Below, one piece after another: positions 11,612 through 39,031 of a stretch of 57,370 bases of DNA. The notes below the pieces were generated by a model. That model saw only the letters and a list, made by a program, of their open reading frames with translations, was not told the origin of the DNA and made no database searches. This stretch comes from an uncultured Bacteroidia bacterium (GTDB lineage Bacteria > Bacteroidota > Bacteroidia > Bacteroidales > Prolixibacteraceae). The stretch covers positions 1 to 57,370 of the forward strand of contig CAIXZH010000036.1 in the NCBI GenBank assembly GCA_903923905.1, given 5' to 3'. Position 1 is the stretch's first letter. Each line of letters opens with the position of its first letter. Both the position numbers and the translations under genes were made by a program.

Positions 11612-12092
11612 TTTTTTACTTTTTAAGATCGGTATTGGCGATGGAATTGCCTTGATTTTTAAGGATGTTGATTTGCGGCTGGCGGCTGACCTGAATGCCT
11701 CTTCCCGATTTTTTTATTCTTGACCCGGGTTTGAAAACGACGATTTTATCCCGGCAGAGATCTGTCAACCGCTTGTTGGGAGTTGCTCTTATTGCCATCC
11801 TCATTTTGCCCGCACAAAATATCAAATGTGGCCCAATCTCTCCGGGTGCTTCTACCTACAAAGGGTTAGATTAAATACTCAATTTACGGTATTGCCCGAC
11901 TCACTCCACTCCCCCATTTTTGTAAACGATAAAAAAACAATTCTACGCTTGTACAATTGCTTTTTATTGGTTTAGATATGAAATATTTAATGAGAGAGGT
12001 TGAATCATCTCATGTCATTAATAATCAAAAGGATCAGTAAATGCGGTTATTTTAAGCTTTTAATAAATTATTGGATAATAATCGTATTTTCT
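11612..12092. other. Intergenic region before the phosphate operon
   Basis: 481 bases without a convincing gene. The minus strand is open at about 11616-11825 and encodes DKIVVFKPGSRIKK near the middle, faintly like the C-terminal end of HU-type DNA-binding proteins, but no N-terminal half is found, so it may be a decayed fragment. The last 100 bases are AT-rich and should hold the porin/pst promoter; no clean TAnnTTTG was found. Confidence 0.4.
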
Positions 12093-13205: not shown

Positions 13206-13226
13206 AGAAAATTATCATATAATAGG

Positions 13227-14177
13227 ATGAAAAACAAACTACTTTTGGGAGCAATGACATTTTTGTTTTGCAACTTTTTGAATTCAATCCCGACCCTTGG
13301 ACAAAGCAAACTTGAGGGAAGGCTCTCTTTTTCAGGGGCTTTTGCGCTTTACCCGATGGCCGTTAAATGGGCCGAGGAGTTCAAGAGAATTAATCCTGCC
13401 GTCAAAATCGACATATCTGCAGGAGGAGCTGGGAAGGGAATGACCGATGTTTTAAATAATATGGTGGATATCGGAATGGTTTCGCGTGAGATTTATCCGG
13501 AGGAAGTAAAAAAGGGAGCCCTGGGTATTGCAGTTACCAAAGATGCCGTGGTTGCAGTCATGAGTGAAAATAACCCGCTTTTAAAAGATATTCTTGCAGT
13601 TGGTCTTAAACCGGAAGCAGCAAACGATCTCTGGATTACGGGAAAATTCAAAACCTGGGGGGAAACCTTCAATCTAAAATCGAAAATTCCGATTCATGTA
13701 TATACCCGTTCAGATGCCTGCGGGGCAGCAGAGGTTTGGGCAAAGCTTTTTGGGCAAAAACAGGAAGATCTTCTGGGAAGCGGTGTTTTTGGCGATCCGG
13801 GATTAGCACTGGCAGTTAAAAAAGATCCGATTGGAATCGGGTACAATAATATTGGCTACGTTTATGATTTTAATACTAAAAAGCAGATACCGGGAATTCG
13901 TGTCGTTCCGATTGATTTGAATAAAAACGGAAAAATTGACCCTGAGGAGGATTTTTACGGATCAATGGATAAACTGATCGATGCCATCACGAAAGGGAAA
14001 TACCCCTCTCCTCCGGCCCGGGATCTTTACTTTGTCACAAAAGGTAAGCCAACGAATAAATTGGTCAATGCCTTCTTAAAATGGGTTCTTGTCGACGGTC
14101 AAAAATATGTGAATGAGACCGGATATATCAACTTAACCAAAGAGATCATTAATAAAGGACTCAAAAACTTGAATTAG
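13227..14177 (+). CDS. pstS: Phosphate ABC transporter substrate-binding protein
   Basis: 316 residues with a signal peptide (cleavage near TLGQS) and no lipobox. Phosphate-binding features: LSFSGAFALYPMAVKWAEEF, the glycine-rich loop SAGGAGKGMTDV, and TRSDACGAAEVWAKLF. Residues 230-241 (DLNKNGKIDPEE) form a textbook EF-hand type calcium loop inserted in the second lobe. It captures phosphate in the periplasm and hands it to PstCA. It lies in the order porin-pstS-pstC-pstA-pstB with gaps of 21, 1, -4 and 5 bases, so the set is one operon. Confidence 0.93.
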   Translation: MKNKLLLGAMTFLFCNFLNSIPTLGQSKLEGRLSFSGAFALYPMAVKWAEEFKRINPAVKIDISAGGAGKGMTDVLNNMVDIGMVSREIYPEEVKKGALGIAVTKDAVVAVMSENNPLLKDILAVGLKPEAANDLWITGKFKTWGETFNLKSKIPIHVYTRSDACGAAEVWAKLFGQKQEDLLGSGVFGDPGLALAVKKDPIGIGYNNIGYVYDFNTKKQIPGIRVVPIDLNKNGKIDPEEDFYGSMDKLIDAITKGKYPSPPARDLYFVTKGKPTNKLVNAFLKWVLVDGQKYVNETGYINLTKEIINKGLKNLN

Positions 14178-14178
14178 A

Positions 14179-15075
14179 ATGCTTAAAGGCAGATTGCTAA
14201 AAGATAGAATAGCACGGCATTACATGTTGTTGGCAACAATATTTTCCATCTTTATCCTTTTCCTGATTGGTGGTGGATTGCTGGTAAAATCGTTACCCAT
14301 CATGCAGGAGAAGAGCCTTTGGACTCTACTTACAACGAGTAACTGGCGCCCGTTTAAAGGAGATTTCGGATTTGCGTCATATATCCTTAGTACCTTATAT
14401 GTCACAGCCATTGCTATTGCTATTGCCCTGCCGCTGTCACTGCTGACTTCAATCTATATCATTGAATATGCTTCACCTCGTATACTCCGGGCTTTTACTG
14501 CAGTTGTTGATTTGCTCTCAGGAATCCCGCCTGTCATTTATGGTGTTTGGGGCACCCTGACCATTGTTCCGTTTATATCCGAGAAATTAGCGCCGCATTT
14601 CGTGGAGTTCTCTACCGGATATAGTGTTCTGGCTGGAGGAATTGTACTTGCAATCATGATCATTCCATTGATTATTAGTATATTGATCGAAGTATTCTCA
14701 GCTGTTCCCAAAGAGATGCGCGAGGCTTCACTTTCGTTGGGAGCTACAAAATGGCAGACCGTTAAAAAGGTAGTGATTCGTAAGTCTATACCCGGAATTG
14801 TGGCAGCAACAGTCCTGGCAATATCCCGCGCCTTTGGTGAAACAATTGCGGTTTTGATGGTGTGCGGAAATTTCACCACCCTCCCAAAATCAATATTCGA
14901 TGCCTGCTACCCTATTCCTGCCTTAATCGCCAATAATTACGGAGAAATGATGTCAGTACCGCGATATGAATCGGCATTGATGTTTGCTGCATTCTTACTA
15001 TTCTTTATCATTGTCCTATTTAACGTGATCTCACGGTTGGTGCTGATACAGATCGATAAAAGATATCAACTATGA
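14179..15075 (+). CDS. pstC: Phosphate ABC transporter permease PstC
   Basis: 298 residues with six hydrophobic segments. The PstC hallmark LLTSNWRPFKGDFGFASYI lies in the first periplasmic loop; the ABC-permease EAA loop is MREASLSLGATKWQTVKKVV, followed by AISRAFGETIAVLMVCG. It forms the inner-membrane channel with PstA. The start is 1 base after the pstS stop and the stop overlaps pstA by 4 bases. Confidence 0.94.
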   Translation: MLKGRLLKDRIARHYMLLATIFSIFILFLIGGGLLVKSLPIMQEKSLWTLLTTSNWRPFKGDFGFASYILSTLYVTAIAIAIALPLSLLTSIYIIEYASPRILRAFTAVVDLLSGIPPVIYGVWGTLTIVPFISEKLAPHFVEFSTGYSVLAGGIVLAIMIIPLIISILIEVFSAVPKEMREASLSLGATKWQTVKKVVIRKSIPGIVAATVLAISRAFGETIAVLMVCGNFTTLPKSIFDACYPIPALIANNYGEMMSVPRYESALMFAAFLLFFIIVLFNVISRLVLIQIDKRYQL

Positions 15076-15911
15076 AGAAACTGGAAGAGAAGATATTCAA
15101 AATTCTGATGATCGGATCTACAGTTCTGATCTTGAGCATACTGCTATATATTCTTTATGTCATCATGAAGAAGGGTTTGCCATCCCTTTCGTGGGACATG
15201 ATCTCGAAAATACCAAGCGGAGGATTCTATCTGGGAAAAGAAGGGGGTATCTTAAATGCGATCATGGGTTCACTCTATTTGATTTTCTTTTCGGTAGTGA
15301 TCAGCCTGATGATAAGTGTACCTGTAGTGATGTATCTGAATTTTACCCTTCGCCGCAAAAGCAAGCTGGCCGCTTTCGCCCGGCTGACATTTGATGTACT
15401 ATTCGGAATCCCTTCTATCGTCTATGGGGCCTTTGGATTTACGGTGATGATCTATTTCGGCCTGCAAGCCTCCCTGTTAGGAGGAATTATTGCAATTAGT
15501 CTGTTGATCATTCCGGTAATGATCCGATCGATTGATGAAGTGGCCATTTTAATTCCCAATGACCTGGTAGAGGCCACCAAATCCCTCGGCGCCACAAACT
15601 ACGAAACGATTAAAGTGATTACACGTCAGCTTCTGCCTGGTATCTCAACAGCCGTTTTACTATCTGTCGGACGAGGAATCGGCGATGCCGCAACTGTCTT
15701 ATTTACTGCAGGTTATACTGATAGTATTCCGACATCCTTAACCCAGCCTACTGCCTCGCTCCCGCTGGCTATATTTTTTCAGCTAAGTAGTCCGGTGGAG
15801 GAGGTCCAAAACAGGGCTTATGCAGCTGCACTGGTTTTGACCATTATCATTTTAACGCTGAGCTTTGCGGCAAGATATTTCAGCAGAAGACTTTCAAAAA
15901 ATAAAATTTAA
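15072..15911 (+). CDS. pstA: Phosphate ABC transporter permease PstA
   Basis: 279 residues with six membrane segments, the partner channel subunit of PstC. EAA loop: VEATKSLGATNYETIKVI, followed by SVGRGIGDAATVLFTAGY, the PstA counterpart of the PstC motif. It overlaps pstC by 4 bases (ATGA), and pstB starts 5 bases after its stop. Confidence 0.94.
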   Translation: MKKLEEKIFKILMIGSTVLILSILLYILYVIMKKGLPSLSWDMISKIPSGGFYLGKEGGILNAIMGSLYLIFFSVVISLMISVPVVMYLNFTLRRKSKLAAFARLTFDVLFGIPSIVYGAFGFTVMIYFGLQASLLGGIIAISLLIIPVMIRSIDEVAILIPNDLVEATKSLGATNYETIKVITRQLLPGISTAVLLSVGRGIGDAATVLFTAGYTDSIPTSLTQPTASLPLAIFFQLSSPVEEVQNRAYAAALVLTIIILTLSFAARYFSRRLSKNKI

Positions 15912-15916
15912 TTCAT

Positions 15917-16741
15917 ATGGAACTGATGACAGCACCCTCAATTGCAGAACAACCAACGCCAAAAGCGAAGAGCTCTTCAGGTTGCCTTAGACCACATATT
16001 GAAGTTGAAAACCTGAACCTTTACATTCAGAATAATCATATTCTTAAAAACATCAATCTGGCTATCCCCGATAAAAGCATTACCTGTATTATTGGTCCTT
16101 CGGGATGTGGAAAGACTACTCTTCTACGGACATTTAACCGGCTTCATGACGGTTCTGTGGATGTAAAAATTACCGGTAAGTTGTTTGTTGATTGTGAAGA
16201 CATTTACGCCAAGGATACTGAAGTCACCCATATTCGCAAGAAAATGGGTTTGTTGGCTCAACGACCCTGTTCACTCCCTATGTCGATAATTGACAATGTG
16301 GTTTACGGACCGCGTATACACGGGGTGCGGGGAAAGCGCAAATTGTACGCCATCGCCCGACATCAGTTAAATGCCGTAGGGTTGTGGGGTGAGGTCAAAG
16401 ACCGGTTAAAATCACCGGCCTCAAAACTTTCCATCGGTCAACAACAACGGCTTTGCCTCGCGCGTGGACTCGCCGTTGAACCAGAAATTATTCTGGGCGA
16501 TGAGGCTACCTCCGCCTTAGATCCAATCTCGTCAAAGACCATTGAGGAGCTCTTCCTTTCAATCAAGGATAAATATACCATTGTGCTGGTCACTCATACC
16601 TTGCGCCAGGCCAAACGGATCGCAGACTATGTGGCATTCATGTATATGGGAGAACTTATAGAATTTGGCACAGCAGATCAGGTGTTTAATCACCCGAAAC
16701 ATAAGCTGACCAAAGAATATATCAGCGGGGGGTTTAGTTGA
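15917..16741 (+). CDS. pstB: Phosphate ABC transporter ATPase PstB
   Basis: 274 residues. About 25 extra N-terminal residues precede the ABC domain. Walker A is GPSGCGKTTLLRTF (about residues 59-72). The ABC signature reads LSIGQQQRLCLARGLA instead of the usual LSGGQ form, Walker B is EIILGDEATSALDP rather than the common LLLDEPCSALDP, and the switch His is in LVTHTLRQA. It drives phosphate import through PstCA. No phoU follows, although phoU usually ends such operons. The changed signature glycine should be noted but does not by itself imply inactivity. Confidence 0.93.
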   Translation: MELMTAPSIAEQPTPKAKSSSGCLRPHIEVENLNLYIQNNHILKNINLAIPDKSITCIIGPSGCGKTTLLRTFNRLHDGSVDVKITGKLFVDCEDIYAKDTEVTHIRKKMGLLAQRPCSLPMSIIDNVVYGPRIHGVRGKRKLYAIARHQLNAVGLWGEVKDRLKSPASKLSIGQQQRLCLARGLAVEPEIILGDEATSALDPISSKTIEELFLSIKDKYTIVLVTHTLRQAKRIADYVAFMYMGELIEFGTADQVFNHPKHKLTKEYISGGFS

Positions 16742-17469: not shown

Positions 17470-17526
17470 TTAATTTAAATTAATCGCAAAATTAATCACC
17501 CTGTTAATCGCCTCCATCTACCTTTG
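17470..17526 (+). promoter_or_regulatory. susC promoter with TTAATC direct repeats
   Basis: TTAAT begins at 17470, 17480, 17492 and 17504; the last three extend to TTAATCGC, TTAATCAC and TTAATCGC at exact 12-base spacing. The -7 element TACCTTTG follows at 17519-17526. There is no TTG at the -33 position, which suits an activator-dependent promoter. The same repeat type precedes the regulator gene at 25.7 kb, so this is the proposed operator of that SARP-like protein. Confidence 0.5.
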
Positions 17527-17587: not shown

Positions 17588-20500
17588 ATGAAGAAAAGAT
17601 TGTACCTTATTTTGATCGTACTGTTTGCTTCATTTTCGGGCGTTATGGCTCAGGTGAAAGTAAGCGGGACTATTACTGATTCCGACGGGGTCAGTATTCC
17701 TGGTGTGTCTGTCGTTCAGAAAGGCACTACGAATGGAACAGTAACGGACGCCAATGGGAAATATGCCATTAGTGTAAGTTCTGCAAGTGCAGTACTGCAA
17801 TTCTCTTTTGTGGGTATGACTCCTGTTTCCGAAGCCATCAACGGCCGGTCGGTCATCAATGTAAAGATGGTTTCAGAGAGCGTCGGAATTAATGAAGTTG
17901 TTGTTACGGCTCTAGGTATCCAGCGCGACAAGAAGACGCTTACCTATGCTTCGCAGCAGGTTTCAGGAACTGAGTTGCTTAAGGCTTCCAATAGCAATTT
18001 CATGGACGCTTTGAGTGGAAAAGCATCAGGTGTTAACATTGAAACCAGTAATTCCGGACCAGGTGGTTCGACTAAAGCTGTACTTAGGGGCAACAAGTCT
18101 CTTACCGGCCTGAGTGAACCTCTTTATGTTATTGATGGTGTTCCGATGGTAAACAATAAAGGCGGACAGCCAGGATCATACGGCGGAACTGACGGTGGAG
18201 ACGGTCTATCCCAGATCAATCCTGCTGACATTGAAAGTCTGAACATATTAAAAGGAGCCAACGCCTCTATCCTTTACGGTAGCCAGGGTGCAAACGGAGT
18301 TGTTTTGATTACTACCAAAAAAGGGAAAGCAGAGAAAACTACAGTTACTGTGAATAGCAGTACTACCTTTGAAAGCGTTTCAGGCCTTCCAGAATTTCAG
18401 TACTCATACGGTGCAGATGGTGCTGATTACAGCTGGTCTATGACCAAAGGAAATTATCAAAAAGATTACATCAAAAATTTCTTCCGCACGGGTGTTAACG
18501 CAACGAATTCCGTTTCGATCAGCGGGGGTAGTGATAAAACAACAGTCTATTTCTCATATTCGAATACCTCTGCAACTGGTATTATGCCAACCAATACTTA
18601 TCAAAAGAATAACTTTAGCTTTAATCAGTCAACCAAATTATTTAACAATAAAGTGACTGTTAGTTCTAATATAATGTTTACCAATGAGGTAGCACGCAAT
18701 CGTCCGGGTGCAGGTTACTACAATAATCCGCTCACCGGTTTATATTTGTTCGCCCGTGAGAGAGATTTCGCATCCTATAAATCAAAGTACGCGATCTTTA
18801 ATAAGGCCAGGAATATGAATGTGATGAACTGGTATTCCACAGAAGAAAAACAAAACAATCCCTATTGGGAATTAAATATGGATCCTAAACTTGCTACAAC
18901 AAGTCGCGTTATCGCCAATGTAAAATTGTCCTGGGATATTGCCAAGCATCTTAAATTCGATGTTCGTGGAAATGTTGACTATGCGGCCAAATTGAATGAC
19001 AACAGGTATGCTGCCGGTGGAAATTCAGTGAGTGTCAGTCCAAACGGATCATGGAATTATAGCAAATACACCGATCAGTCATTGTATACTGACGGAATTT
19101 TAAGTTACAATAACAAATTCGGAGATATCAGTTTAAATGCAATTTTAGGAGCAAGTTATCAGCATAACATCTTCAATGATGGAATGTCGGTTTCAAATGG
19201 TACTACTTCCTTAATGTATCCAAACTTCTTTTCTTTCGCGAACATGCCCTACAATGTCATGTTTAATAATACAATTAACAGGGAAATCAAACAGGGAGCT
19301 TTTGCCAATGCACAGATAGGGTATAAAGAGATGTTGTTTTTGGATTTGTCCCTGCGTAACGACTGGGCTTCAACCTTAGCACTTACCGGGAATCAATCCT
19401 ATTTGTACCCTGCAGTCGGTCTTTCAGCCATTCTGAGTCAGATGGTTAAAATGCCGGAAGCAATATCCTTCGCCAAACTGAGGGCATCCTCCTCTCAAAC
19501 GGCCAATGAAGTACCATTCAACGTGGTAAATCCTGAGAATAGTATTGGTGGTGCAGGGACTCCTAGTGGAATCGGAAGTATTAGCCGTAATTCACAGGTA
19601 CCATTTACTAATTTAAAACCTGAGGTCATTACCAGTTCGGAATTAGGTACAGAATGGCGTTTCTTTAGTGGAAGGGCTGGCCTGGAATTCACTTATTACA
19701 GTGATGTCAGTACCAATCAATTTCTTACACTTTCCGCCCTATCAGGTTCCGGTTATACCAGTTACTATGTCAATGCCGGTAAGGTTACTAACAAAGGTTT
19801 TGAATTGACAATAGATGCTTCACCGGTAAAAACTTCTGATTTCAGTTGGAAAACATCCGTGAATTTGTCACAAAACAAGAATAAAATTGTTTCCCTGATC
19901 GCTTCAAATCCTGATTACGTAGTCTATAGTAATAACAATGACGAAGGATTTACTTCCGAAATTAAGGCTGGCGGATCATTTAACGATGTTTATATCTACA
20001 AATTCGCAAGAAATACAGCCGGTCAGATCATTCTTGATTCGAAAGGTGTTCCAACAGCAGCAACTACCCAAACAAAAGTGGGCAATGTGAATCCCGATTT
20101 CCTTTTAGGATGGAATAATACCCTGGACTATAAGAATTTCTTTATGAGCATGCTGATCAATGCCAAGTTTGGTGGGGTTGCATTTTCGAAAACTGAAGCT
20201 TTCCTTGATTCCTATGGTGTAAGCAAAAGAACCGGAGATATCCGCGATGCAGGTTCTACTATGCCAATTAACGCCGTTGACGCCAATGGTAATGCGGTTA
20301 CTTCAATTTCTCCGGTAACCTACTATGGAGCTGTCGGTGACCGTAACCGGATTATGGAGCCTTATATCTACTCCAGGACAAATGTAAGATTAGGTCAGTT
20401 AGTCTTTGGATATAATTTCGACGTGAAGAAATACAACTTACCGATTAAAGAAGCTTCGTTTTCGTTAGTTGGAAGGAATTTATTCTTCTTCTACAAAAAA

Positions 20501-20614
20501 GCTCCTTACGATCCAGAACAGGCCATGAGCACAAACAATTCACAGCAATCAAACGAAGTGTTTAGTGTTCCTTCAACAAGGACTTACGGGTTTAGCTTAA
20601 AAGTCACTTTCTAA
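17588..20614 (+). CDS. SusC/RagA-family TonB-dependent outer-membrane transporter
   Basis: 1008 residues. Signal peptide MKKRLYLILIVLFASFSGVMAQ, then a carboxypeptidase-D-like regulatory domain (VSGTITDSDGVSIPGVSVV), the plug domain (DALSGKASGVNIETSN, LYVIDGVPM, DIESLNILKGANASILYG, GVVLITTKKGK) and a long beta-barrel ending in a terminal aromatic (LKVTF). It imports an oligosaccharide across the outer membrane with the SusD partner 19 bases downstream, powered by TonB. There is no N-terminal signalling (STN) domain, so it does not work through an anti-sigma factor. The barrel is at the short end of the family (about 1000-1100 residues). Confidence 0.95.
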   Translation: MKKRLYLILIVLFASFSGVMAQVKVSGTITDSDGVSIPGVSVVQKGTTNGTVTDANGKYAISVSSASAVLQFSFVGMTPVSEAINGRSVINVKMVSESVGINEVVVTALGIQRDKKTLTYASQQVSGTELLKASNSNFMDALSGKASGVNIETSNSGPGGSTKAVLRGNKSLTGLSEPLYVIDGVPMVNNKGGQPGSYGGTDGGDGLSQINPADIESLNILKGANASILYGSQGANGVVLITTKKGKAEKTTVTVNSSTTFESVSGLPEFQYSYGADGADYSWSMTKGNYQKDYIKNFFRTGVNATNSVSISGGSDKTTVYFSYSNTSATGIMPTNTYQKNNFSFNQSTKLFNNKVTVSSNIMFTNEVARNRPGAGYYNNPLTGLYLFARERDFASYKSKYAIFNKARNMNVMNWYSTEEKQNNPYWELNMDPKLATTSRVIANVKLSWDIAKHLKFDVRGNVDYAAKLNDNRYAAGGNSVSVSPNGSWNYSKYTDQSLYTDGILSYNNKFGDISLNAILGASYQHNIFNDGMSVSNGTTSLMYPNFFSFANMPYNVMFNNTINREIKQGAFANAQIGYKEMLFLDLSLRNDWASTLALTGNQSYLYPAVGLSAILSQMVKMPEAISFAKLRASSSQTANEVPFNVVNPENSIGGAGTPSGIGSISRNSQVPFTNLKPEVITSSELGTEWRFFSGRAGLEFTYYSDVSTNQFLTLSALSGSGYTSYYVNAGKVTNKGFELTIDASPVKTSDFSWKTSVNLSQNKNKIVSLIASNPDYVVYSNNNDEGFTSEIKAGGSFNDVYIYKFARNTAGQIILDSKGVPTAATTQTKVGNVNPDFLLGWNNTLDYKNFFMSMLINAKFGGVAFSKTEAFLDSYGVSKRTGDIRDAGSTMPINAVDANGNAVTSISPVTYYGAVGDRNRIMEPYIYSRTNVRLGQLVFGYNFDVKKYNLPIKEASFSLVGRNLFFFYKKAPYDPEQAMSTNNSQQSNEVFSVPSTRTYGFSLKVTF

Positions 20615-20633: not shown

Positions 20634-22214
20634 ATGAAAAAGATATTTATTGGTCTACTATTCATGTGTGGTCTCGCTGCATGCACATCGAATTTTGTAA
20701 ATGAAAATCAGAATCCATATCAGATCTCTGATGTATTGCTTCAGCAGGACTTTAACCTGGTAGGTTCTCCATTTTCAGGGATGCTTTATCAACTTCACGG
20801 TGATCAGGGAAGTCAGATTGAAGAAGATCTATGTTACGATTCCTGGATGGGGTACATGAATACGGGTACTGATTTTGTAGGGAACGTCAACAATACCACA
20901 TATGCGATGGCCTGGAGAGGTGCATACTGGAATCGCGAATATGGCAACATCATGTCACCTGCCAAACAGGTCATTGCTTTGGCTAAGTCGAATAACCTGC
21001 CACTTTTTGCCACATGGGCGAATCTGATTAGAATTCTTTCGATGTCCAGAGTGGCAGCGATTCACGGTCCAATAATTTATTCCAATTATGGCTCAACGGC
21101 TAATTCAATTCCTTATGACAAGGAGTCAGATCTGTACAACCTGTTTTTTGCCCAGTTAGACACTATTCAAACTGCTTTTGCTGCAAATACATCCTACGCC
21201 GGGTTTGTTAAATTCGATCCCAGCTATAAAGGTAGTATTGCGGCATGGATGAAAGTTGTAAATTCTTTGCGCCTGCAATTGGCTATGCGCATATCCAAAG
21301 TTGCTCCAGCCGTGGCAAAAACACAGGGCGAAAAGGCAATGGCAGATCCCGCTGGATTAATAGCTACTAATGATGATAATTTTTTACTTTCACAATTGGG
21401 AAATATCATGCCTGTTGGAATGATCTGTTTCCAATGGGATGATACCCGAATGGGTGGTGTTATGGAATCCTTTATGGTTGGGATGAATGATGGACGTATT
21501 TCAAAATACTTTTCTCCGGTTTCTGATCCGACCCTATATGCCGACCATCCAGCTTCTCCTTACAAGGGCATCCGAAATGGTTCTTATATTACTTCTAAAG
21601 CAGCCCATATCAATTTCTCCAAAGTATCTACTGATTTTAACACAGTACAAAACAGAAGGCATCTAACTGCCGCTGAAGTTAGCTTCCTCAAAGCTGAAGC
21701 AGCTCTCAGAGGCTGGACAGGTGCAGGTGATGCAGGAACGAATTATAAAAATGGAGTCAGGTTATCCTTTGCGGATTGGGGTGGAGCCAATGTAGATGCC
21801 TACCTTGCTGATAACACAAGTAAACCAATTGCTTATGTAGATCCTGTGGACTCGAGAAATAATTTCACACCGCTTTCTACAATTACTGTTGCCTGGAATG
21901 AAGGTGACAGCAATGAGCTGAAATTGGAGAAGATCATGACCCAGAAATGGCTGAATAACTTCACCAATACCTTAGAATCCTGGGTAGATTTCAGAAGGAC
22001 CGGTTATCCTAAAATTCCTCATGTTGCCAAAAACGACAGCCCTTCCAGATCATATGGGATTGTCGCTCCTGATCAATGGATTAAGAGAATGGAATTTACC
22101 GATTCAGAAAGATTGAGTAATGCAGCAGCAGTTGCTACGGCAACCTCAAGCCTAGGTGGTGCAGATGAAATCGGTACCCGCTTATGGTGGGATACTGGCG
22201 GTTCAAACTTTTAA
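20634..22214 (+). CDS. SusD/RagB-family surface glycan-binding lipoprotein
   Basis: 526 residues. Lipoprotein signal with the lipobox LAAC (Cys17). The mature start NENQNPYQISD is typical of the SusD-like group 2 (PF12771 type) rather than classic SusD. Helical TPR-like body; the C-terminal part contains EVSFLKAEAALRGW and IMTQKWLNNF, both common SusD landmarks. It sits as a lid on the SusC transporter and binds the incoming glycan. It is followed by a strong terminator, so susC-susD is a closed transcription unit. Confidence 0.92.
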   Translation: MKKIFIGLLFMCGLAACTSNFVNENQNPYQISDVLLQQDFNLVGSPFSGMLYQLHGDQGSQIEEDLCYDSWMGYMNTGTDFVGNVNNTTYAMAWRGAYWNREYGNIMSPAKQVIALAKSNNLPLFATWANLIRILSMSRVAAIHGPIIYSNYGSTANSIPYDKESDLYNLFFAQLDTIQTAFAANTSYAGFVKFDPSYKGSIAAWMKVVNSLRLQLAMRISKVAPAVAKTQGEKAMADPAGLIATNDDNFLLSQLGNIMPVGMICFQWDDTRMGGVMESFMVGMNDGRISKYFSPVSDPTLYADHPASPYKGIRNGSYITSKAAHINFSKVSTDFNTVQNRRHLTAAEVSFLKAEAALRGWTGAGDAGTNYKNGVRLSFADWGGANVDAYLADNTSKPIAYVDPVDSRNNFTPLSTITVAWNEGDSNELKLEKIMTQKWLNNFTNTLESWVDFRRTGYPKIPHVAKNDSPSRSYGIVAPDQWIKRMEFTDSERLSNAAAVATATSSLGGADEIGTRLWWDTGGSNF

Positions 22215-22285: not shown

Positions 22286-22385
22286 GAACAAGAGTTATCA
22301 GATTGTCTCTTTTTTGCGGCTGAATTAGCTTAATTTCGCAGCCGTTTGGTATCACATGTTTTATAATCAGCTAATCAACAAACCA

Positions 22386-24209
22386 ATGAACTTACAACCA
22401 CTTGATATAGGGATCGTTATCGGATATTTGATACTGACCCTGCTGATTGGTTTTCTGATCTCCAAACAGGCCAGCAAGAACCTCGATTCCTATTTCCTGG
22501 GTGGAAAACGCATCCCCTGGTATATCCTGGGAATATCAAACGCTTCCGGGATGTTTGATATCACCGGAACCATGTGGTTTGTCTCAATTTTATTTATTTA
22601 CGGTCTTAAAGGGGCCTGGTTACCCTGGATATGGCCGATCTGGAACCAGGTATTTCTGATGGTATTCTTAGCCACCTGGCTGAGGCGATCGAAGGTGATG
22701 ACCGGCGCAGAATGGTTAAAAACACGGTTTGGTGAAGACCGGGGCGGGAGACTCTCCCACCTGATTATTGTCGTTTTTGCTATTGTCAGTGTCATTGGTT
22801 TTATAGCCTACACTTTTGCAGGTATCGGGAAATTCGCCACCTCATTTTTTCCATGGGACCTTACAACAGAAATCGGATCCAAAGTGATTTCGTCCGAAAA
22901 CATGTATGCGCTGCTTATCATTGGATTTACCACGTTGTATGTAATCAAGGGAGGTATGTATAGTGTGGTTGCAACAGAGATCATGCAGTTTTTGGTTCTG
23001 ACCATTTCCTGCTTCGTCGTAGGGGTGATTGCCATGAACCTGGTGACACCTGCCCAGCTGAATGCTGTAATTCCTGCCGGCTGGAAAGATCTTTTCTTCG
23101 GGTGGAAATTAAATCTCGACTGGAGCAATCTGATCCCCTCAGTAAAGAATAAAATATCCGCCGACGGATATGAATATTTCTCCATTATTTTCATGATTAT
23201 GGTTTTTAAAGGACTTTTGGTGAGCATCGCAGGTCCGGTTCCAAGTTATGATCTTCAACGGATACTTTCAACTAAAAATCCACGGGATGCAGCCCGCATG
23301 ACCGGTTTCACCTCATTGGTACTTTTCTTTCCCCGTTTCCTGATGGTTGCCGGAATCACTGTTCTGGTACTAGTCTACTTTAGTCCAAAATTAAATTCGA
23401 TGGGATCGGATATTGATTTCGAAATGATTTTGCCTTATGCCGTCAGTAATTTTATCCCGACAGGTCTGCTGGGACTTTTACTCGCAGGATTAATCGCTGC
23501 ATTTATGTCAAACTTCGCGGCTTATGTGAATGCAGGCCCTGCTTATATTGTAAATGATATTTATAAAAAGTTTATCAACCCGAATGCCTCGAATAAAAGA
23601 TATATCCGGTTAAGCTACCTGGTTTCTTTATTGGTTGTCATCATTGGCGTTATCTTTGGAATGTTTATCCATTCCATTGATTCGATGACTAAATGGATTG
23701 TTGCTTCGTTGTATGGAGGGTATACTGCAGCTAATATCCTAAAATGGGTCTGGTGGCGATTTAACGGTTACGGCTATTTTTGGGGAATGTTATCCGGAAT
23801 AGCTGCCTCATTGGTAATCCCTCTCGTCTTTCCTGATTCATCAGCATTGAATACATTTCCGTTAATTTTATTGATCTCATCTGTCGGTTGCGTTGCAGGT
23901 AGTCTGTTGACAGCACCTGATAATGAAGAGGTTCTTAAAGAATTCTATTCTTCAGTTCGCCCCTGGGGCTTTTGGGAACCCATCTATCAGAAAGTTTTGG
24001 CAGAAAACCCTGCTTTTAAGAAAAACAGGAATTTTAAACGTGATATGATGAACTGTTCGGTAGGTATTGCCTGGCAGATGAGCATGGTTGTAATGCCTAT
24101 TTACTTGGTTATCAGGGAATTCATATCGATGTCGATTGCATTTGTTGTTTTTGCAGCAACCACCGTTTTTCTGAAGTTTTATTGGTACGACAGACTTGAG
24201 GAGGATTAG
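22386..24209 (+). CDS. Sodium:solute symporter (SSS family)
   Basis: About 607 residues from the ATG at 22386 (an alternative ATG at 22356 adds 10 residues). Around 13 hydrophobic segments with the SSS fold. The N-terminus MNLQPLDIGIVIGYLILTLL and SYFLGGKRIPWYILGISNASG are characteristic. It probably imports a sugar or disaccharide with Na+ across the inner membrane. The GH130 phosphorylase lies downstream behind a REP cluster, and a mannoside is therefore a reasonable substrate by context; the sequence alone does not prove it. It is 70 residues longer than the SSS at 51155, mainly at the C-terminus. Confidence 0.88.
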   Translation: MNLQPLDIGIVIGYLILTLLIGFLISKQASKNLDSYFLGGKRIPWYILGISNASGMFDITGTMWFVSILFIYGLKGAWLPWIWPIWNQVFLMVFLATWLRRSKVMTGAEWLKTRFGEDRGGRLSHLIIVVFAIVSVIGFIAYTFAGIGKFATSFFPWDLTTEIGSKVISSENMYALLIIGFTTLYVIKGGMYSVVATEIMQFLVLTISCFVVGVIAMNLVTPAQLNAVIPAGWKDLFFGWKLNLDWSNLIPSVKNKISADGYEYFSIIFMIMVFKGLLVSIAGPVPSYDLQRILSTKNPRDAARMTGFTSLVLFFPRFLMVAGITVLVLVYFSPKLNSMGSDIDFEMILPYAVSNFIPTGLLGLLLAGLIAAFMSNFAAYVNAGPAYIVNDIYKKFINPNASNKRYIRLSYLVSLLVVIIGVIFGMFIHSIDSMTKWIVASLYGGYTAANILKWVWWRFNGYGYFWGMLSGIAASLVIPLVFPDSSALNTFPLILLISSVGCVAGSLLTAPDNEEVLKEFYSSVRPWGFWEPIYQKVLAENPAFKKNRNFKRDMMNCSVGIAWQMSMVVMPIYLVIREFISMSIAFVVFAATTVFLKFYWYDRLEED

Positions 24210-24447: not shown

Positions 24448-25647
24448 ATGGACAAGCATAGCTTTGATATACGCCTTAAACACCTTTTTGAGCAATACCG
24501 CCTTTTAATCAACAGGCAAAATATTCAACAAAAGAATGGGAATGGCATTTACGACCGGTATGAGTTTCCTGTTTTAACCCGCAACCACGCACCCGTCTTC
24601 TGGCTGTACGATCTGAACTATGAAACCAATCCCCATCTGATGACCCGCCTGGGAATAAACACTACTTTCAACGCAGGTGCTATCAAGCTCAATGGCAGAT
24701 ATTTCATGATCGCTCGTGTGGAAGGTTTCGATGTAAAATCGTTCTTTGCAGTAGCCGAAAGTCCCGATGGCATTAATTTCTGGAAGTTCTGGGACCGTCC
24801 TATCGTAATGCCGGTAACGGAAGACCCGGAAAAGAATGTTTATGATATCCGGTTAACCCTGCACGAAGATGGTTGGATCTATGGTCTGTTTTGCGCGGAA
24901 CGGAAAGACCAAAGCAATCCGGAAGATTCATCGGCTGCCTTGGCCAGTTGTGGTATTGCAAGAACAAAAGATTTAAAAAGCTGGGAACGGCTGCCGGATT
25001 TAAAATCATCGGCGGTGCAGCAACGTAATTGTGTCCTTCATCCTGAATTTGTAAATGGCAAGTATATGATTTACACCCGCCCGCAGAAAAGTTTCATCGA
25101 AACGGGTGACAGTGGAATCTGTGCCGGGTTTACCTATTCTATGGAAGAACCATCTGTTGAAAATGAAATCATGGTAGATCCGAGAATGTATCACACGGTA
25201 AAAGAGGTAAAAAACGGACAGGGGCCTGCACCGCTAAAAACACCGATTGGCTGGTTGCACCTGGCTCATGGTGTGAGACGTACAGCCGCCGGATTACGTT
25301 ATACGTTATATCTGTTTTTGACTGATCTTCACGAACCCTGGAGGGTGACCAAACGCCCTGGAGGGCATTTTATTGAACCATTGGAAGATGAACGGATTGG
25401 TGACGTTTCGAACGTCGTATTCAGCAGTGGGTGGATTCATGATGATAATGGAACTGTGTTTATATACTACGCCTCCTCCGACACCAGGATGCATGTTGCC
25501 ACAACGACCATTGAAAAAATAGTCGATTATGTTCTCAATACTCCTGAGGACCCGGGTCGAACCCAATTGTGCGCTGTCCAACGTGAAGATTTAATCCTTC
25601 AAAATCTGGAGATCTTAAAAAAACATTACCCAACTATTCGTTATTAA
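24448..25647 (+). CDS. GH130 4-O-beta-D-mannosyl-D-glucose phosphorylase
   Basis: 399 residues. Five-bladed GH130 propeller with strong subfamily-1 motifs: YEFPVLTRNHAPVFW, GINTTFNAGAIKLNGRYFM, RVEGFDVKSFFAVAESPDG, NVYDIRLT with the acid/base Asp at about 133, IARTKDLKSWERLPDLK, HPEFVNGKYMIYTRPQ, GWLHLAHGVRRTAAGLRY and FIYYASSDTRMHVATTTI. The known reaction is phosphorolysis of mannosyl-beta-1,4-glucose to mannose-1-phosphate and glucose in the cytoplasm; there is no signal peptide, in agreement. Its usual partner, a cellobiose/mannobiose 2-epimerase, is not adjacent but an AGE-family candidate is at 52785-54059. Confidence 0.88.
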   Translation: MDKHSFDIRLKHLFEQYRLLINRQNIQQKNGNGIYDRYEFPVLTRNHAPVFWLYDLNYETNPHLMTRLGINTTFNAGAIKLNGRYFMIARVEGFDVKSFFAVAESPDGINFWKFWDRPIVMPVTEDPEKNVYDIRLTLHEDGWIYGLFCAERKDQSNPEDSSAALASCGIARTKDLKSWERLPDLKSSAVQQRNCVLHPEFVNGKYMIYTRPQKSFIETGDSGICAGFTYSMEEPSVENEIMVDPRMYHTVKEVKNGQGPAPLKTPIGWLHLAHGVRRTAAGLRYTLYLFLTDLHEPWRVTKRPGGHFIEPLEDERIGDVSNVVFSSGWIHDDNGTVFIYYASSDTRMHVATTTIEKIVDYVLNTPEDPGRTQLCAVQREDLILQNLEILKKHYPTIRY

Positions 25648-25683: not shown

Positions 25684-25730
25684 TTAATCGATTAATTAGG
25701 GATTAATCAGGAGATTAATTCCTATATTTG
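25684..25730 (+). promoter_or_regulatory. Regulator promoter with GATTAAT direct repeats
   Basis: GATTAAT starts at 25690, 25701 and 25713 (spacing 11 and 12), with a further TTAATC at 25684. The -7 element TATATTTG follows at 25723-25730, two bases after the last repeat. No TTG at -33. The similarity to the susC promoter cluster suggests autoregulation. The start codon of the regulator is at 25771. Confidence 0.5.
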
Positions 25731-25770: not shown

Positions 25771-28368
25771 ATGAAGGTTCAGTCGGGAATAATTTTTGGG
25801 CTGATCTTGTTTTTCTTTTTTTCGAATAAAACCTCTTCTCAGAATTTATTTCATTCCGGACTACTCTTTACGGCTGCACCAAGCCCAAAAGAGCAGCGTA
25901 CTTCATTGGATCTTACTTATAACTCTTCTGTTATTGCCCGTTATAAATTTAGTCTGGAGTTTGATTTTGCAATTTGGAATCGTGATCAATTTGGTTACAT
26001 TTTCAGGATATTTGATAAAGAGCATCACAATATCGACCTCGTATATATTCCTGAGAGCAGCACTCTAGCGGTTTTAAAGCTAGTTGTAAACGAGCAACTG
26101 ACTACAATCAATATTCCCCTGGCGGAAAATAAATTGGTCAGGAATAATTGGCTTCACCTGGGTTTGACTTTTGATTTGGAGCATGGGAAAGTGGAATGCA
26201 CTTTGGGAGATCAGATATTTTCTGATGATCATGTTGTTCTTGATGGGTTCAGGAAGGTCAATATTTGTTTTGGTGCCAACCGTTCGATTAATTTCCCCAC
26301 CACCGATGTACCACGGATGGCCATCAGGAACATAAAGATCGGAGATTATAATAACAAGTCGCGTCATAATTGGCTGCTCAACGAATCTGAAGGGGATAAA
26401 GCATCAGATCTGGTGGGGAATTTAACTGCCCGCACTACCAACCCAAACTGGCTCCTCAATAACCATTTTTTCTGGACTAAAAAGGATGAGTTGAAACTGG
26501 AGGCATCTTCCGGTATTGCCTTTGATACGGTGCAAAACCGGATACTTTTTATCGGCAAACAGAAAATCGTATCCTACGATATTATAAACTCCAGGATCGA
26601 GGAACAGAAGGTGGAGAACTCTAAACCTTCCAGCCTGGAATCCGAGTCTTATTACTATTCTTTTCCTGAAAAAAAAATATTTTGTTTTAGCACGGTCCCC
26701 AATGATATCCATGTCTATGATGAAAACGATAATGATTGGGGAAAGGGAACCTTTAATTCTGAGACTTCTCAGGCAGTAAATTCAACATTTTTCCTTAACG
26801 ATCAGGATAAGTCCGCCTATTCACTCGGAGGGTACCACAACTACAAATATTACGATTATTTAATGCGTTACAGTTTCCCGGAGAAGAGCTGGAAACAGGT
26901 AATTCTGAATGGGGACAAACTAGTTCCCCGGTCCTATGCTGCAGTTGCAAAAACAAAAATATCCGGAGAATATCTGATTTTCGGTGGATATGGGAATGCC
27001 TCCGGCCAGCAAGAGCTTGGTCCCCAGTGCCTCTATGATCTTTATCGACTAAATCTGAATGATTTGACACTAGAGAAAAAATGGAATATAGAGAATGTTA
27101 CTGAGAATTTTATCCCCATGGGTTCTACGACTGTTCCGGAGCAAACTCCGGCCCTTTATGTTCTGGGCTTTCCCCCTTTTCTGAACGGAACCTACCTTAA
27201 GCTCTATCGGATTTCACTTGAAAAGCCTGATTATTTAGCCGTTAGCGACACTATGCATTTTTATTTTGATGAGGAGCGATCTAAGGCATCTCTATCATTT
27301 TTCAATAAAACAAAGGAGTTTTTTGCCGTTATAAAAACACCAGCCAGTGGAGATTCGGCGAGCTATAAAATTTTTACGCTGAATTATCCGCCGATAAACC
27401 GGTCAATGTTATCCATCACCTTTAAAACAGTCCTATCCAACCCGGGGAATTGGATCACCAGAGTCATTTGGATGGTAGGAGTATTTTCATTGGTATTTAT
27501 CTATTTGCTGATCTTTCTGCTTAAAAAACTTCACTGGGCTGAGGAGAGTTTGGAAGACGATAACCGGTTAAATTCCCTGGTAAACGATAAGATTCCAAAA
27601 CGGACTGAAAATCCAGTTAAACGAATAGTGGAACTGCCCCGCCAAAATGCAATTTATCTATTTGGGGAATTCCGGGTTTATGACAATGATGGGTTGGAGA
27701 TTCGTAACCGTTTCACAACAAAACTAAGACAACTGTTTTTATCGATTTTACTGTTGGGAACAGATGAGAAGGGGATCACGAATGAAAAATTAAATAGTAT
27801 TCACTGGACCTATCACACACCGGAAAGCGCGAAGAATAACCGCAACGTCAATGTGAAGAAATTAAGAGATCTGCTGGCCAATCTCAAAGGGATTCAAATC
27901 ATCCATGTTGATGGAAGCTGGATCCTGAAATTTAGCAAAGATGTTTTTTGCGATTATCAGTTCCTGCTTAAAAAAATAAAAGGCAATTTCCAGCCACTTA
28001 CCCGGGAAGAGTTTGAGAAAATAATTCTAATTCTTGCCCAAGGGATATTCGTCGCAGATGAACGAACCCCCTGGCTCGATCCATTCAACAGCCATTTTCT
28101 GACCTCCTTGCTGAATTATCTTTTTCTGTTGGTCGACTCATTCGAGAAAGAGAAGAATCCTGAGGCAATCTATCAAATCGCCGATATTATTTTAAAATCT
28201 GATCCGTTAAATGAAGAAGCATTCAAATTAAAGATCGAGGCACTGATCCAGCTTAAAAATCACAACCAGGCATTTTTTGATTATACCTATTTTACCAAAG
28301 GATATGAAAAGATGTATGGAATCCAATTTCCGTATAGTTTCAAATCATTTATCAGGAAAGTAGATTAG
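25771..28368 (+). CDS. Membrane-anchored LamG/kelch-SARP transcriptional regulator
   Basis: About 865 residues from the ATG at 25771, which gives a signal peptide (MKVQSGIIFGLILFFFFS). Domains: a concanavalin/LamG-like sandwich, about 30-215 (NNWLHLGLTFDLEHGKVECT); a kelch-like beta-propeller, about 235-530 (YSLGGYHNYKYYDYLMRY, GEYLIFGGYGN); one membrane helix at about 566-588 (VIWMVGVFSLVFIYLLIFLL); then, inside the cell, an OmpR/SARP-type winged helix at about 622-720 (AIYLFGEFRVYDNDG, TTKLRQLFLSILLLG, SAKNNRNVNVKKLRDLL) and a BTAD-like helical domain (LNEEAFKLKIEALIQ). It therefore looks like a one-component sensor-activator that reads a periplasmic glycan and binds DNA directly. No kinase or receiver domain. 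Function is inferred from domain order and neighbours. Confidence 0.8.
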   Translation: MKVQSGIIFGLILFFFFSNKTSSQNLFHSGLLFTAAPSPKEQRTSLDLTYNSSVIARYKFSLEFDFAIWNRDQFGYIFRIFDKEHHNIDLVYIPESSTLAVLKLVVNEQLTTINIPLAENKLVRNNWLHLGLTFDLEHGKVECTLGDQIFSDDHVVLDGFRKVNICFGANRSINFPTTDVPRMAIRNIKIGDYNNKSRHNWLLNESEGDKASDLVGNLTARTTNPNWLLNNHFFWTKKDELKLEASSGIAFDTVQNRILFIGKQKIVSYDIINSRIEEQKVENSKPSSLESESYYYSFPEKKIFCFSTVPNDIHVYDENDNDWGKGTFNSETSQAVNSTFFLNDQDKSAYSLGGYHNYKYYDYLMRYSFPEKSWKQVILNGDKLVPRSYAAVAKTKISGEYLIFGGYGNASGQQELGPQCLYDLYRLNLNDLTLEKKWNIENVTENFIPMGSTTVPEQTPALYVLGFPPFLNGTYLKLYRISLEKPDYLAVSDTMHFYFDEERSKASLSFFNKTKEFFAVIKTPASGDSASYKIFTLNYPPINRSMLSITFKTVLSNPGNWITRVIWMVGVFSLVFIYLLIFLLKKLHWAEESLEDDNRLNSLVNDKIPKRTENPVKRIVELPRQNAIYLFGEFRVYDNDGLEIRNRFTTKLRQLFLSILLLGTDEKGITNEKLNSIHWTYHTPESAKNNRNVNVKKLRDLLANLKGIQIIHVDGSWILKFSKDVFCDYQFLLKKIKGNFQPLTREEFEKIILILAQGIFVADERTPWLDPFNSHFLTSLLNYLFLLVDSFEKEKNPEAIYQIADIILKSDPLNEEAFKLKIEALIQLKNHNQAFFDYTYFTKGYEKMYGIQFPYSFKSFIRKVD

Positions 28369-37260: not shown

Positions 37261-38148
37261 ATGAGGCATTTGATGATACCTTTGATATTTCTCTTTTTAG
37301 CCTCCTGTGGCTGGCATCTCCCTCAGGGCAATACATCGGGTTTGATTAAAAAGGAAGATTCGTTCGCGGATCCTGCAAAAATCTCACAGTTGAAGCTCAC
37401 GAACGCGCTGCAATATCACCAGACACTTGAACGTCTTGATCCTGTGGATTTAGCATCACTTGGTGCTGCCCGTACACTCATCAGCAATTGTGTTTCAGAT
37501 AGCCTTACCCGCGATTCGATGTTTGTTGATTTCAACGGCTTCCTGAATAACCTTGCCGCATCTTATCTCGAAAATAATGAAACAGTTGCAAATCAGCTCG
37601 TGAATTCTCCTTCGTCTGAAACCGTTAATACCTTAAAAACCTCGTTTGCGGCCAACGGACTGTTACTGTATTCCCAGGAAGGATTATTTTCCCTGGAACC
37701 TCAAACCAAATTTCTATTGCAACAATTCGGGAAAGATTTGTCGGGTCCCTATCGCGAATTCTTATCCATCAGGTGCCGGGAGCAGGAGTTTGGTTTTGAA
37801 AAGGTGGGAAAATTACTAATTCCAGCAGATTCATTAGCCTCACGAATATTAAACTGGGAAAATTTCATACAGCGGAATCCCGGCTTTATTTCAATCAGGA
37901 TCGCAAAGGAGAATTACGCGCATTACCTGAGTCTGTTTCTTGCCGGGGCAGACAATTCCAGGGCGTTTGATCCGGAAACCAACCATCTGAATGACAGCTT
38001 AAAAGTCACTTTCGAATCTTTCGTTGCGAAAAATCCTGAAAGTAGTAGTGGCCAGCTGGTAAAAGCATACCTTGAAATGCTAAAATCCAATGATTTCATT
38101 TATTGCGACAAAGTTGATTCCTTTTTGCTTGAAAAAGTTTATCATTGA
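37261..38148 (+). CDS. Hypothetical lipoprotein
   Basis: 295 residues, not recognised. Begins MRHLMIPLIFLFLASCG, a lipoprotein signal with lipobox LASC (Cys16), so it is probably anchored in the outer or inner membrane, facing the periplasm. The rest is helical and soluble with no cysteine- or glycine-rich motif. Its function is unknown. It lies between the pgi terminator and an unrelated membrane-protein gene with its own promoter, so it is probably transcribed alone. Confidence 0.7.
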   Translation: MRHLMIPLIFLFLASCGWHLPQGNTSGLIKKEDSFADPAKISQLKLTNALQYHQTLERLDPVDLASLGAARTLISNCVSDSLTRDSMFVDFNGFLNNLAASYLENNETVANQLVNSPSSETVNTLKTSFAANGLLLYSQEGLFSLEPQTKFLLQQFGKDLSGPYREFLSIRCREQEFGFEKVGKLLIPADSLASRILNWENFIQRNPGFISIRIAKENYAHYLSLFLAGADNSRAFDPETNHLNDSLKVTFESFVAKNPESSSGQLVKAYLEMLKSNDFIYCDKVDSFLLEKVYH

Positions 38149-38272: not shown

Positions 38273-39031
38273 ATGTTTACAATTGTCATTGTTAGTGCTT
38301 TTGTCGTTTTCTACTATTGGTTTATCTTTCGAATAAATTTTTACCCCTCCTTTGTTAGATTAAATTTATGGGCGGAAGATGAAAATATTGATACAGTTGG
38401 TTACCTCTGGTTCATAAAAAATGGGACATTAATTTGGTTCTTATTTGTATTTACTGGTTGGATGGTAAAGGAAATTTTTGAAATATCTGATGGATGGTAT
38501 GTTAGTTATTTTGTGATTACAACAATTTGTTTGGCTGTTATATTAACTATTGGAGGGAAACAATTTGCTTATCCCAAACCAGAAGATGTACCAATTGAGT
38601 TTCAGGTGGCTAATACAAGAAAGAACCCTTTTTTATCCGGAATTCTTGCTGCAATTATTCTAGTAGGCACTTTATTATTCACATATTTAGGCTATATGGA
38701 GTCTGCCGCAACATGTGATTCAAAAAATTTTGAAATACATGGTTTATGGGGTACAGCGGTACCAATATCTGAAATTTGCCGTGTAGATACTATTTCCTTG
38801 AATGACCTGGTACCAGTCACATTACGGGTTAATGGCATTTCGCTGATGTTTATAAAACGTGGCACATTTAAAATGAAAGATTTTGGAACGGTACAGTTAA
38901 ATTTAAATTACCGTAGTAATCCTGTTATCAAAATCGTTGACAATGCCAAACGATTTTATTTTGTAAATCGAAAAGATCCTAAAGAAACCCGAAGGTTGTT
39001 TTTCGATATACAGCGATACATAACTCGATAA
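38273..39031 (+). CDS. Membrane protein with C-terminal bacterial PH-like domain
   Basis: 252 residues. Four hydrophobic segments (about 1-18, 47-66, 79-96 and 121-141) followed by a beta-rich domain with FEIHGLWGTAVPISEICRVD, then NPVIKIVDNAKRFYFVNRKD and a final helix. This layout fits the bPH_5-type PH domains found after membrane helices in Bacteroidota; ligand and role are unknown. The coding sequence is visibly more AT-rich than its neighbours, which may mean recent acquisition. Confidence 0.6.
   Translation: MFTIVIVSAFVVFYYWFIFRINFYPSFVRLNLWAEDENIDTVGYLWFIKNGTLIWFLFVFTGWMVKEIFEISDGWYVSYFVITTICLAVILTIGGKQFAYPKPEDVPIEFQVANTRKNPFLSGILAAIILVGTLLFTYLGYMESAATCDSKNFEIHGLWGTAVPISEICRVDTISLNDLVPVTLRVNGISLMFIKRGTFKMKDFGTVQLNLNYRSNPVIKIVDNAKRFYFVNRKDPKETRRLFFDIQRYITR

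Follow-up and report, generated by a model that had tools for sequence, protein, structure and literature searches.

A predicted membrane-attached regulator with a SARP-type module and a candidate tandem-repeat operator in a SusC/SusD locus of an uncultured Bacteroidia bacterium

The window analysed here is the whole stretch of 57,370 nucleotides of contig CAIXZH010000036.1 (GCA_903923905.1), from an uncultured Bacteroidia bacterium of the Prolixibacteraceae. On its forward strand it carries, at 25771-28368, a gene for a protein of 865 amino acids, called the regulator below, which lies behind genes for a SusC-like receptor, a SusD-like lipoprotein, a sodium:solute symporter family (SSF) transporter and a GH130 enzyme. 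We consider it likely, from sequence comparison, that the regulator is a single-pass inner-membrane one-component protein of the SARP type that drives susC-susD-SSF-GH130 via TTAAYC repeats. Its periplasmic LamG-like and kelch part would sense a ligand of the locus, probably beta-1,4-mannosyl-glucose or a mannooligosaccharide imported via SusCD. The cytoplasmic winged helix and BTAD domain would bind three head-to-tail TTAAYC sites upstream of the susC -7 box and help RNA polymerase to start susC-susD-SSF-GH130, and an inverted array upstream of the regulator's own -7 box might serve autorepression. Computed support comes from domain homology, the predicted single membrane helix and the conservation and linkage of the operator; the inside/outside topology, the ligand, binding of the protein to the repeats, activation and autorepression we infer. 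Other loci and genomes are referred to by L and G numbers.

The frame of the regulator gene is open from 25735 (forward strand) to 28368, and the ATG at 25771 is the point where the alignment with eight close orthologues starts. These proteins, labelled uncultured Bacteroidia (four), Prolixibacteraceae (one) and Mariniphaga (three), are 67-79% identical to the regulator and align almost over its full length. The open reading frame at 25771-28368 is real and conserved.

The SARP-type module spans residues 616-865, C-terminal of the predicted membrane helix, and consists of two parts:

27646..27936, forward strand: OmpR/SARP-type winged helix (about residues 626-722), from hhalign and fold search
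27937..28365, forward strand: BTAD-like helical domain (about residues 723-865), from hhalign to BTAD-positive proteins, with EmbR and AfsR as best fold matches

Pfam sees neither domain in the window regulator, and at E-values up to 10 it calls BTAD in 4 of 19 relatives (best 0.0031) and not in the window regulator. The assignment comes from profile comparison, for which the reference was a set of ten BTAD-positive proteins of the sampled Bacteroidota. Against this set hhalign gave 99.8% over 241 columns for the module and 0.3% for the N-terminal domain of the regulator as a control. A profile of the family matched the SARP regions of BTAD-positive proteins with E-values from 1.2e-18 to 0.0017 for the best stretch, covered part or all of the SARP region in such proteins among 30 fetched stretches, and overlapped the Pfam BTAD calls in G231, G328, G210, G202, G298 and G220. 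Within the winged helix Trp679, Asn689 and Val693 are invariant across 19 sequences. A fold model of the C-terminal 250 residues (pLDDT 69, pTM 0.63) had as its six best matches in the PDB EmbR (2fez, and 2ff4 twice) and AfsR (8hvr, and 8k60 twice), with E-values of 1.9e-3 to 4.1e-2 and probabilities of 0.97-1.00. The structural side also holds points against the assignment: the TM-scores of these matches are only 0.43-0.47 and none reaches an E-value of 0.001, the model itself is moderate, and the full-length AlphaFold2 model was poor (pLDDT 48) and was kept out of the fold search. Because the TM-scores are low, the claim of a SARP-type module is carried by the sequence evidence. A sequence search of the PDB with the C-terminal profile returned five weak saposin matches (best E 0.025), which we judged to be chance.

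An earlier note on this DNA, made from the sequence alone, had proposed a protein with one membrane helix and a C-terminus of the SARP type. The hhalign result and the EmbR and AfsR matches bear this out. The order of an OmpR-type winged helix followed by BTAD, which marks a SARP, is seen in the window regulator by hhalign and fold matches; the usual SARP layout, with an N-terminal module and no membrane anchor, is not strictly defining and is not the layout found here.

The candidate operator lies upstream of susC:

17480..17510, forward strand: candidate susC operator, three TTAATC at 17480, 17492 and 17504, kept in L002, L003, L008, L192 and L193
17519..17526, forward strand: TAnnTTTG (-7) box of susC, TACCTTTG, 8 bp past the last heptamer

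In the window, L002, L003 and L008 the susC upstream region holds TTAATC three times in exact 12-bp steps, the bases between the copies being partly variable, and in all four a perfect TAnnTTTG follows 8 bp after the last heptamer. TAnnTTTG is the Bacteroidota -7 consensus in the passages of PMC7366714 cited here. The susC promoters of L192 and L193 (loci of G615 and G619), fetched after the TTAAYC pattern was already known, carry three TTAAYC in 12-bp steps, preceded 10 bp upstream by a fourth copy; the box of L192, CATATTTG, is at the same distance from the array as in the window, and that of L193, TACATTTG, one base further. All six available susC promoters of this type of locus (the window, L002, L003, L008, L192 and L193) therefore have the array, a count that leaves aside L004, L005, L007 and L009, whose stretches stop short of the susC promoter. 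The spacing resembles that at SARP targets, where direct repeats lie about 11 bp apart and the 3' repeat 8 bp from the -10 element: here the steps are 12 bp and the gap 8 bp. In the 5.4-Mb genome of the window an exact triple TTAAYC at 11-12 bp occurs only twice, at the promoters of susC (17480-17509) and of the regulator gene (25690-25718, reverse strand), and the reversed control pattern not at all.

The TTAAYC core came from a repeat search with no preset motif over 26 regions, in which the susC and own-gene promoters of the window had p = 0.003 and an L032 region 0.040; later tests are accordingly not blind for L026-L039. When regions were scored without shuffling, 15 of 18 points were reached by 16 of 32 regulator-adjacent regions and by 7 of 91 others. 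What weakens this result is that four control motifs and a shifted TTAAYC copy also favoured adjacent regions (p 0.029 to 4e-6), five of six other motifs having p < 0.05 with the shifted copy included. This is in part because adjacent regions are longer (median 386 against 240), and for both reasons the later tests used dinucleotide shuffles.

The first of these covered 25 loci, with three TTAAYC and a box at +15 scored against 400 dinucleotide shuffles at p < 0.01. It picked out 9 of 20 regulator-adjacent targets, 1 of 20 of the regulators' own promoters and 5 of 115 other promoters. Five of the nine scoring targets are GH92 (two), GH125, GxGYxYP hydrolase and SusC genes; the remaining four (L026, L031, L106 and L108) belong to no enzyme family. 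Among L100-L110, which were not used to choose TTAAYC, targets scored in 2 of 8 cases and others in 0 of 55 (p = 0.014), with the qualification that the +15 box rule, derived from four susC promoters, was fixed after most of these loci had been seen. A second set of 23 loci, with everything fixed beforehand, gave 7 of 24 targets, 2 of 20 own promoters and 1 of 66 others (Fisher 3e-4). Pooled, targets scored in 16 of 44 cases and others in 6 of 181 (Fisher 1.1e-8), p-values that are optimistic since the loci are partly related. Both tests exclude intergenic stretches under 60 bp, convergent ones and those with runs of N. A stricter pattern of array plus box, searched in 19 regulator-bearing genomes, had two matches, both linked to the regulator (the window susC promoter and a GH92 promoter adjoining the regulator in G133), and its control none.

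Apart from the partial relatedness of the loci, several of these results detract from a common operator. The sites of the second set are weaker, three having at least 20 of 24 points and none 22. Ten target regions have an array of at least 16, and the box is at +15, +16 or +27 in 5 of them. An array at p < 0.01 is missing from 28 of 44 target promoters, over half, which points to a variable site or to a target at some other place. Only 5 of the 19 regulator-bearing genomes contain exact arrays, and none was seen in the 18.5 kb of L006, a locus in which susC and susD have been replaced.

Such results also invite the explanation that the repeats serve another regulator or are a general promoter feature, with the SARP-like protein acting elsewhere. 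Consistent with it, 6 of 181 non-adjacent promoters score too, and exact arrays are found in 5 of 147 sampled genomes beyond the window's own, which is not above the level of the reversed pattern (6 of 148). With the window's genome counted, the array is in 6 of 148 phylum genomes and the reversed pattern in 6, and outside the regulator family the pattern is at background level. Linkage argues the other way. Both exact arrays of the window genome are at the regulator locus, and in the 19 regulator-bearing genomes the 11 exact matches represent eight distinct sites, six of them at the regulator locus, against one match of the reversed pattern in these genomes. Of the six scoring non-adjacent promoters, three precede SusC genes and one a GH92 gene in the same loci; these four are among the five found in the first set. 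We regard this explanation as improbable. Exact arrays without a family member within the 16 kb fetched around each were seen in G497 (L156 near 8016 and L157 near 7951), among genes that are not obviously for sugars. G228 and G321, of one genus, carry near-identical triple TTAATC arrays in several copies, perhaps a repeated element.

The second array of the window lies at the regulator's own promoter in the opposite orientation:

25690..25718, reverse strand: inverted array ahead of the regulator gene, GATTAA at 25690, 25701 and 25713 (exact match)
25723..25730, forward strand: TAnnTTTG box of the regulator gene, TATATTTG

The inverted array stops 4 bp short of the -7 box, and in eight of the nine close loci the [GA]ATTAA closest to the own-gene box begins 10-11 bp upstream of it; in L007 the own-gene promoter is without a TAnnTTTG box. 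Tentatively, this placement might point to autorepression. The array was not seen at the own gene in L169 and L170, two loci from other genera of the family, which speaks against this part of the proposal. Forward arrays at own promoters of distant relatives are those counted above (1 of 20 and 2 of 20), and the single one of the first set is the promoter of a module copy in L105.

The part of the regulator ahead of the module is divided as follows:

25771..25842, forward strand: signal-peptide-like N-terminus (residues 1-24), assigned by eye from a hydrophobic stretch followed by ...SSQN, with orthologue starts aligned
25843..26478, forward strand: all-beta N-terminal domain, LamG-like (residues 25-236), from weak Pfam and hhalign evidence
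26479..27390, forward strand: kelch-type beta-propeller (residues 237-540), from Pfam kelch families
27457..27534, forward strand: single transmembrane helix (about residues 563-588), hydropathy peak 2.76 at 565-583

Pfam finds only kelch families in the window regulator at E-values up to 10, with PF24681 at 2.1e-10 (under its own cut-off) and Kelch_4 at the cut-off, and an NCBIfam search gave a single match far below cut-off. PF24681 is found in 16 of 19 family members. The N-terminal domain of the window regulator has no Pfam match, and Laminin_G_2 was called in 1 of 12 members, at 0.023; hhalign against the Laminin_G_3 domains of sister proteins gave 23% (E 8.7e-4) over 61 columns, and Pfam and PDB profile searches yielded no solid match to LamG. 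The LamG-like label is thus suggestive only. The domain chain of the earlier note stands for the kelch propeller, the single helix and the winged helix with BTAD, the signal peptide being recognised by eye, and is left weak at the LamG fold. The alignments A2/A3 hold 19 of 23 proteins, near-duplicates L003, L004, L006 and L008 being dropped, and A5 holds 12 of the 23 family proteins; L018 (kelch only) and L025 (internal stop) were excluded from every alignment.

Sister proteins with another outer part have Laminin_G_3 ahead of the membrane helix in 10 of 10 cases. Their architecture, seen in L178, L179, L181 and seven further loci, is an N-terminal region, Laminin_G_3, a membrane helix and the same module; the N-terminal region looks PLC-like by eye in some. 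One genome, G619, has seven matches to the window regulator, of which the two with an internal stop were left out of the fetched set.

At a hydropathy threshold of 1.6, 35 of 36 family proteins have a single hydrophobic helix ahead of the module, the exception being L106 (peak 1.32), and a scan of the 36 from residue 45 up to the 150 residues that precede the module showed no second helix of this kind. The helix is also present in 23 of 23 further members from the second set. A signal-peptide-like start is absent, at the chosen ATG, in some of the 36 (e.g. L016, L024, L101, L103 and L105). Lysine and arginine are more frequent after the helix than before it in 30 of the 36, equal in three and less frequent in three. 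A sensor outside and a module inside would be the natural reading, predicted from hydropathy and charge only; it is weakened by the neutral balance in the window regulator (2/2) and the reversed balance in three close orthologues. In L103 (7338-8959) a member is apparently split into a kelch-like fragment and a fragment with membrane helix and module. In two other BTAD-positive proteins, L112:5781-8672 and L117:6251-8656, an N-terminal SARP region is followed by a hydrophobic helix, so SARP-like proteins with the reverse order may be attached to membranes as well.

At L105:6532-10073 a 259-residue copy of the module that lacks a membrane helix comes after a membrane member, with four TTAAYC repeats between the two genes; the copy was kept out of the 36. 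This arrangement would suit regulated proteolysis, in which the SARP-type part is released from the membrane by cleavage and activates transcription in soluble form; we think it unlikely that the window regulator acts in this way rather than from the membrane.

The predicted targets and the gene between them and the regulator are:

17588..20614, forward strand: susC-like TonB-dependent receptor, predicted target (Pfam)
20634..22214, forward strand: susD-like lipoprotein, predicted target (SusD-like, 1e-137)
22356..24209, forward strand: SSF transporter, predicted target (SSF, 3e-26)
24448..25647, forward strand: GH130, nearest solved structure 3was (3.6e-152)

The structure 3was is a 4-O-beta-D-mannosyl-D-glucose phosphorylase. 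The SusC/D, symporter and GH130 surroundings named in the earlier note were recovered, and the candidate operator at the susC promoter was added to them. The SSF gene precedes the regulator directly or one GH130 away in L002, L003, L004, L006, L007, L008 and L009, with one small opposite frame between the two in L009. The order susC-susD-SSF-GH130-regulator recurs in L169 and L170, whose regulators are 40% and 37% identical to the window protein. A Porin_10 gene lies downstream of the regulator in L002-L006 and L009 and is missing there in L007 and L008.

Among the close loci GH130 stands between SSF and regulator only in L004 and L007, L005 starting too late, and its absence from that position in L002, L003, L006, L008 and L009 is a point against the proposed reading. 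So is the lack of obvious glycan neighbours, judged by eye from protein starts, in L101, L103, L105, L107, L109 and L110, which are outside the order. The outer part might sense the state of the envelope or a partner protein, such as SusD or the SSF transporter, in place of glycans: SSF is the most constant neighbour, whereas GH130 varies, and several distant relatives are outside evident glycan loci. Distant members within the order adjoin SusC, GH92, GH125 and GxGYxYP hydrolase genes, and these neighbours together with the kelch-type ectodomain make such a sensor rather doubtful. Elsewhere in the window, a Porin_O_P gene followed by PBP_like_2, two BPD_transp_1 and an ABC ATPase gene forms a pst-like group just upstream of the glycan locus (12000-16741), a GH92 alpha-mannosidase gene lies about 12 kb downstream of the regulator, outside the operon (40658-42913), and two reading frames (37261-38148 and 38273-39031) have no Pfam match at 1e-5.

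Matches to the regulator occur in 10 of the 198 genomes of its order, including the window's own and G148, where only the kelch repeats match. Full-length relatives in the order are 25-30% identical to it, and three more proteins have in common with it the membrane helix and C-terminus alone. Of 61 genomes of the nearest relatives, 21 have a match, the window's own counted. Searching 395 phylum genomes with the profile of the C-terminal 250 residues gave 25 with matches at E up to 1e-6, of which 11 (the window's included) have strong ones below 1e-40 and 14 weaker ones, and relatives bearing the same module with different outer parts are found across the phylum. On balance we lean towards the view that Bacteroidota hold a further undescribed class of glycan-locus regulators: SARP-type activators that are tethered to the membrane, have exchangeable sensors in the periplasm (LamG-like plus kelch; an N-terminal region plus Laminin_G_3; a short beta domain) and share a single operator code, TTAAYC repeated in tandem at 11-12 bp and located 8-9 bp ahead of the -7 box. 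If this is true, the promoter logic of actinobacterial SARPs also works in a second phylum, whose primary sigma factor is different, sugar uptake makes use of a SARP activation mechanism familiar from antibiotic clusters, and a readable operator allows regulons to be predicted from sequence in uncultured Bacteroidota.

No description of a SARP in a glycan locus or bound to a membrane was found, mostly by title, among the papers listed from the open-licence PMC literature; an older or closed one may exist. The words membrane and Bacteroid are absent from the main text of the SARP review PMC10972967, and SARP and SusR go unmentioned in the passages of PMC10766802 drawn on here. The glycan-locus regulators specific to the phylum are SusR-like, hybrid two-component and ECF/anti-sigma types, according to the cited part of PMC3878776. 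There SusR is presented as a membrane protein whose sensor domain lies in the periplasm and whose DNA-binding domain lies in the cytoplasm. Since SusR is already a single-polypeptide membrane sensor-regulator, the one-piece layout is not new, and the earlier note overstated the novelty of a sensor and activator in one protein across the membrane.

Like the hybrid two-component systems of Bacteroidota, the regulator would combine a large periplasmic sensor and an output in one chain at glycan loci; unlike them, it has no kinase, receiver or AraC domain (Pfam, E up to 10). The membrane regulators of the CadC/ToxR type have a membrane-tethered OmpR-type winged helix, which is N-terminal and without BTAD. 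The window regulator shares the tethered winged helix and differs in the reversed domain order and the presence of BTAD.

With the SARPs AfsR and EmbR the regulator shares a winged helix plus BTAD. SARPs activate transcription by contacting RNA polymerase, and the window regulator would recruit polymerase at susC in a similar manner. In those two proteins the module is N-terminal, and the sources as cited do not describe them as membrane proteins, whereas in the window regulator it is C-terminal behind a membrane helix. SARPs bind direct repeats spaced 11 or 22 bp apart, and a gap of 8 bp separates the 3' repeat from the -10 element (PMC10936776, in the section cited). As at AfsR-type targets in that account, the candidate repeats are direct, about one helical turn apart and 8 bp from the promoter box; the susC promoter departs from the rule in its 12-bp step and in having a Bacteroidota -7 box in place of the -10 element. 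The AfsR repeat CGTT(T/C)ATCGNN, as given in the part of PMC10972967 used here, is close to the TTAATCG of the window. Like SusR of Bacteroides thetaiotaomicron, as far as the cited part of PMC3878776 describes it, the regulator would be one membrane protein that has a periplasmic sensor and a cytoplasmic DNA-binding domain and activates susC-type operons; unlike SusR, it has a SARP-type module, and its repeats are tandem at 11-12 bp. What is new is the SARP-type module with its candidate operator: the layout is SusR-like, the module and operator are SARP-like.
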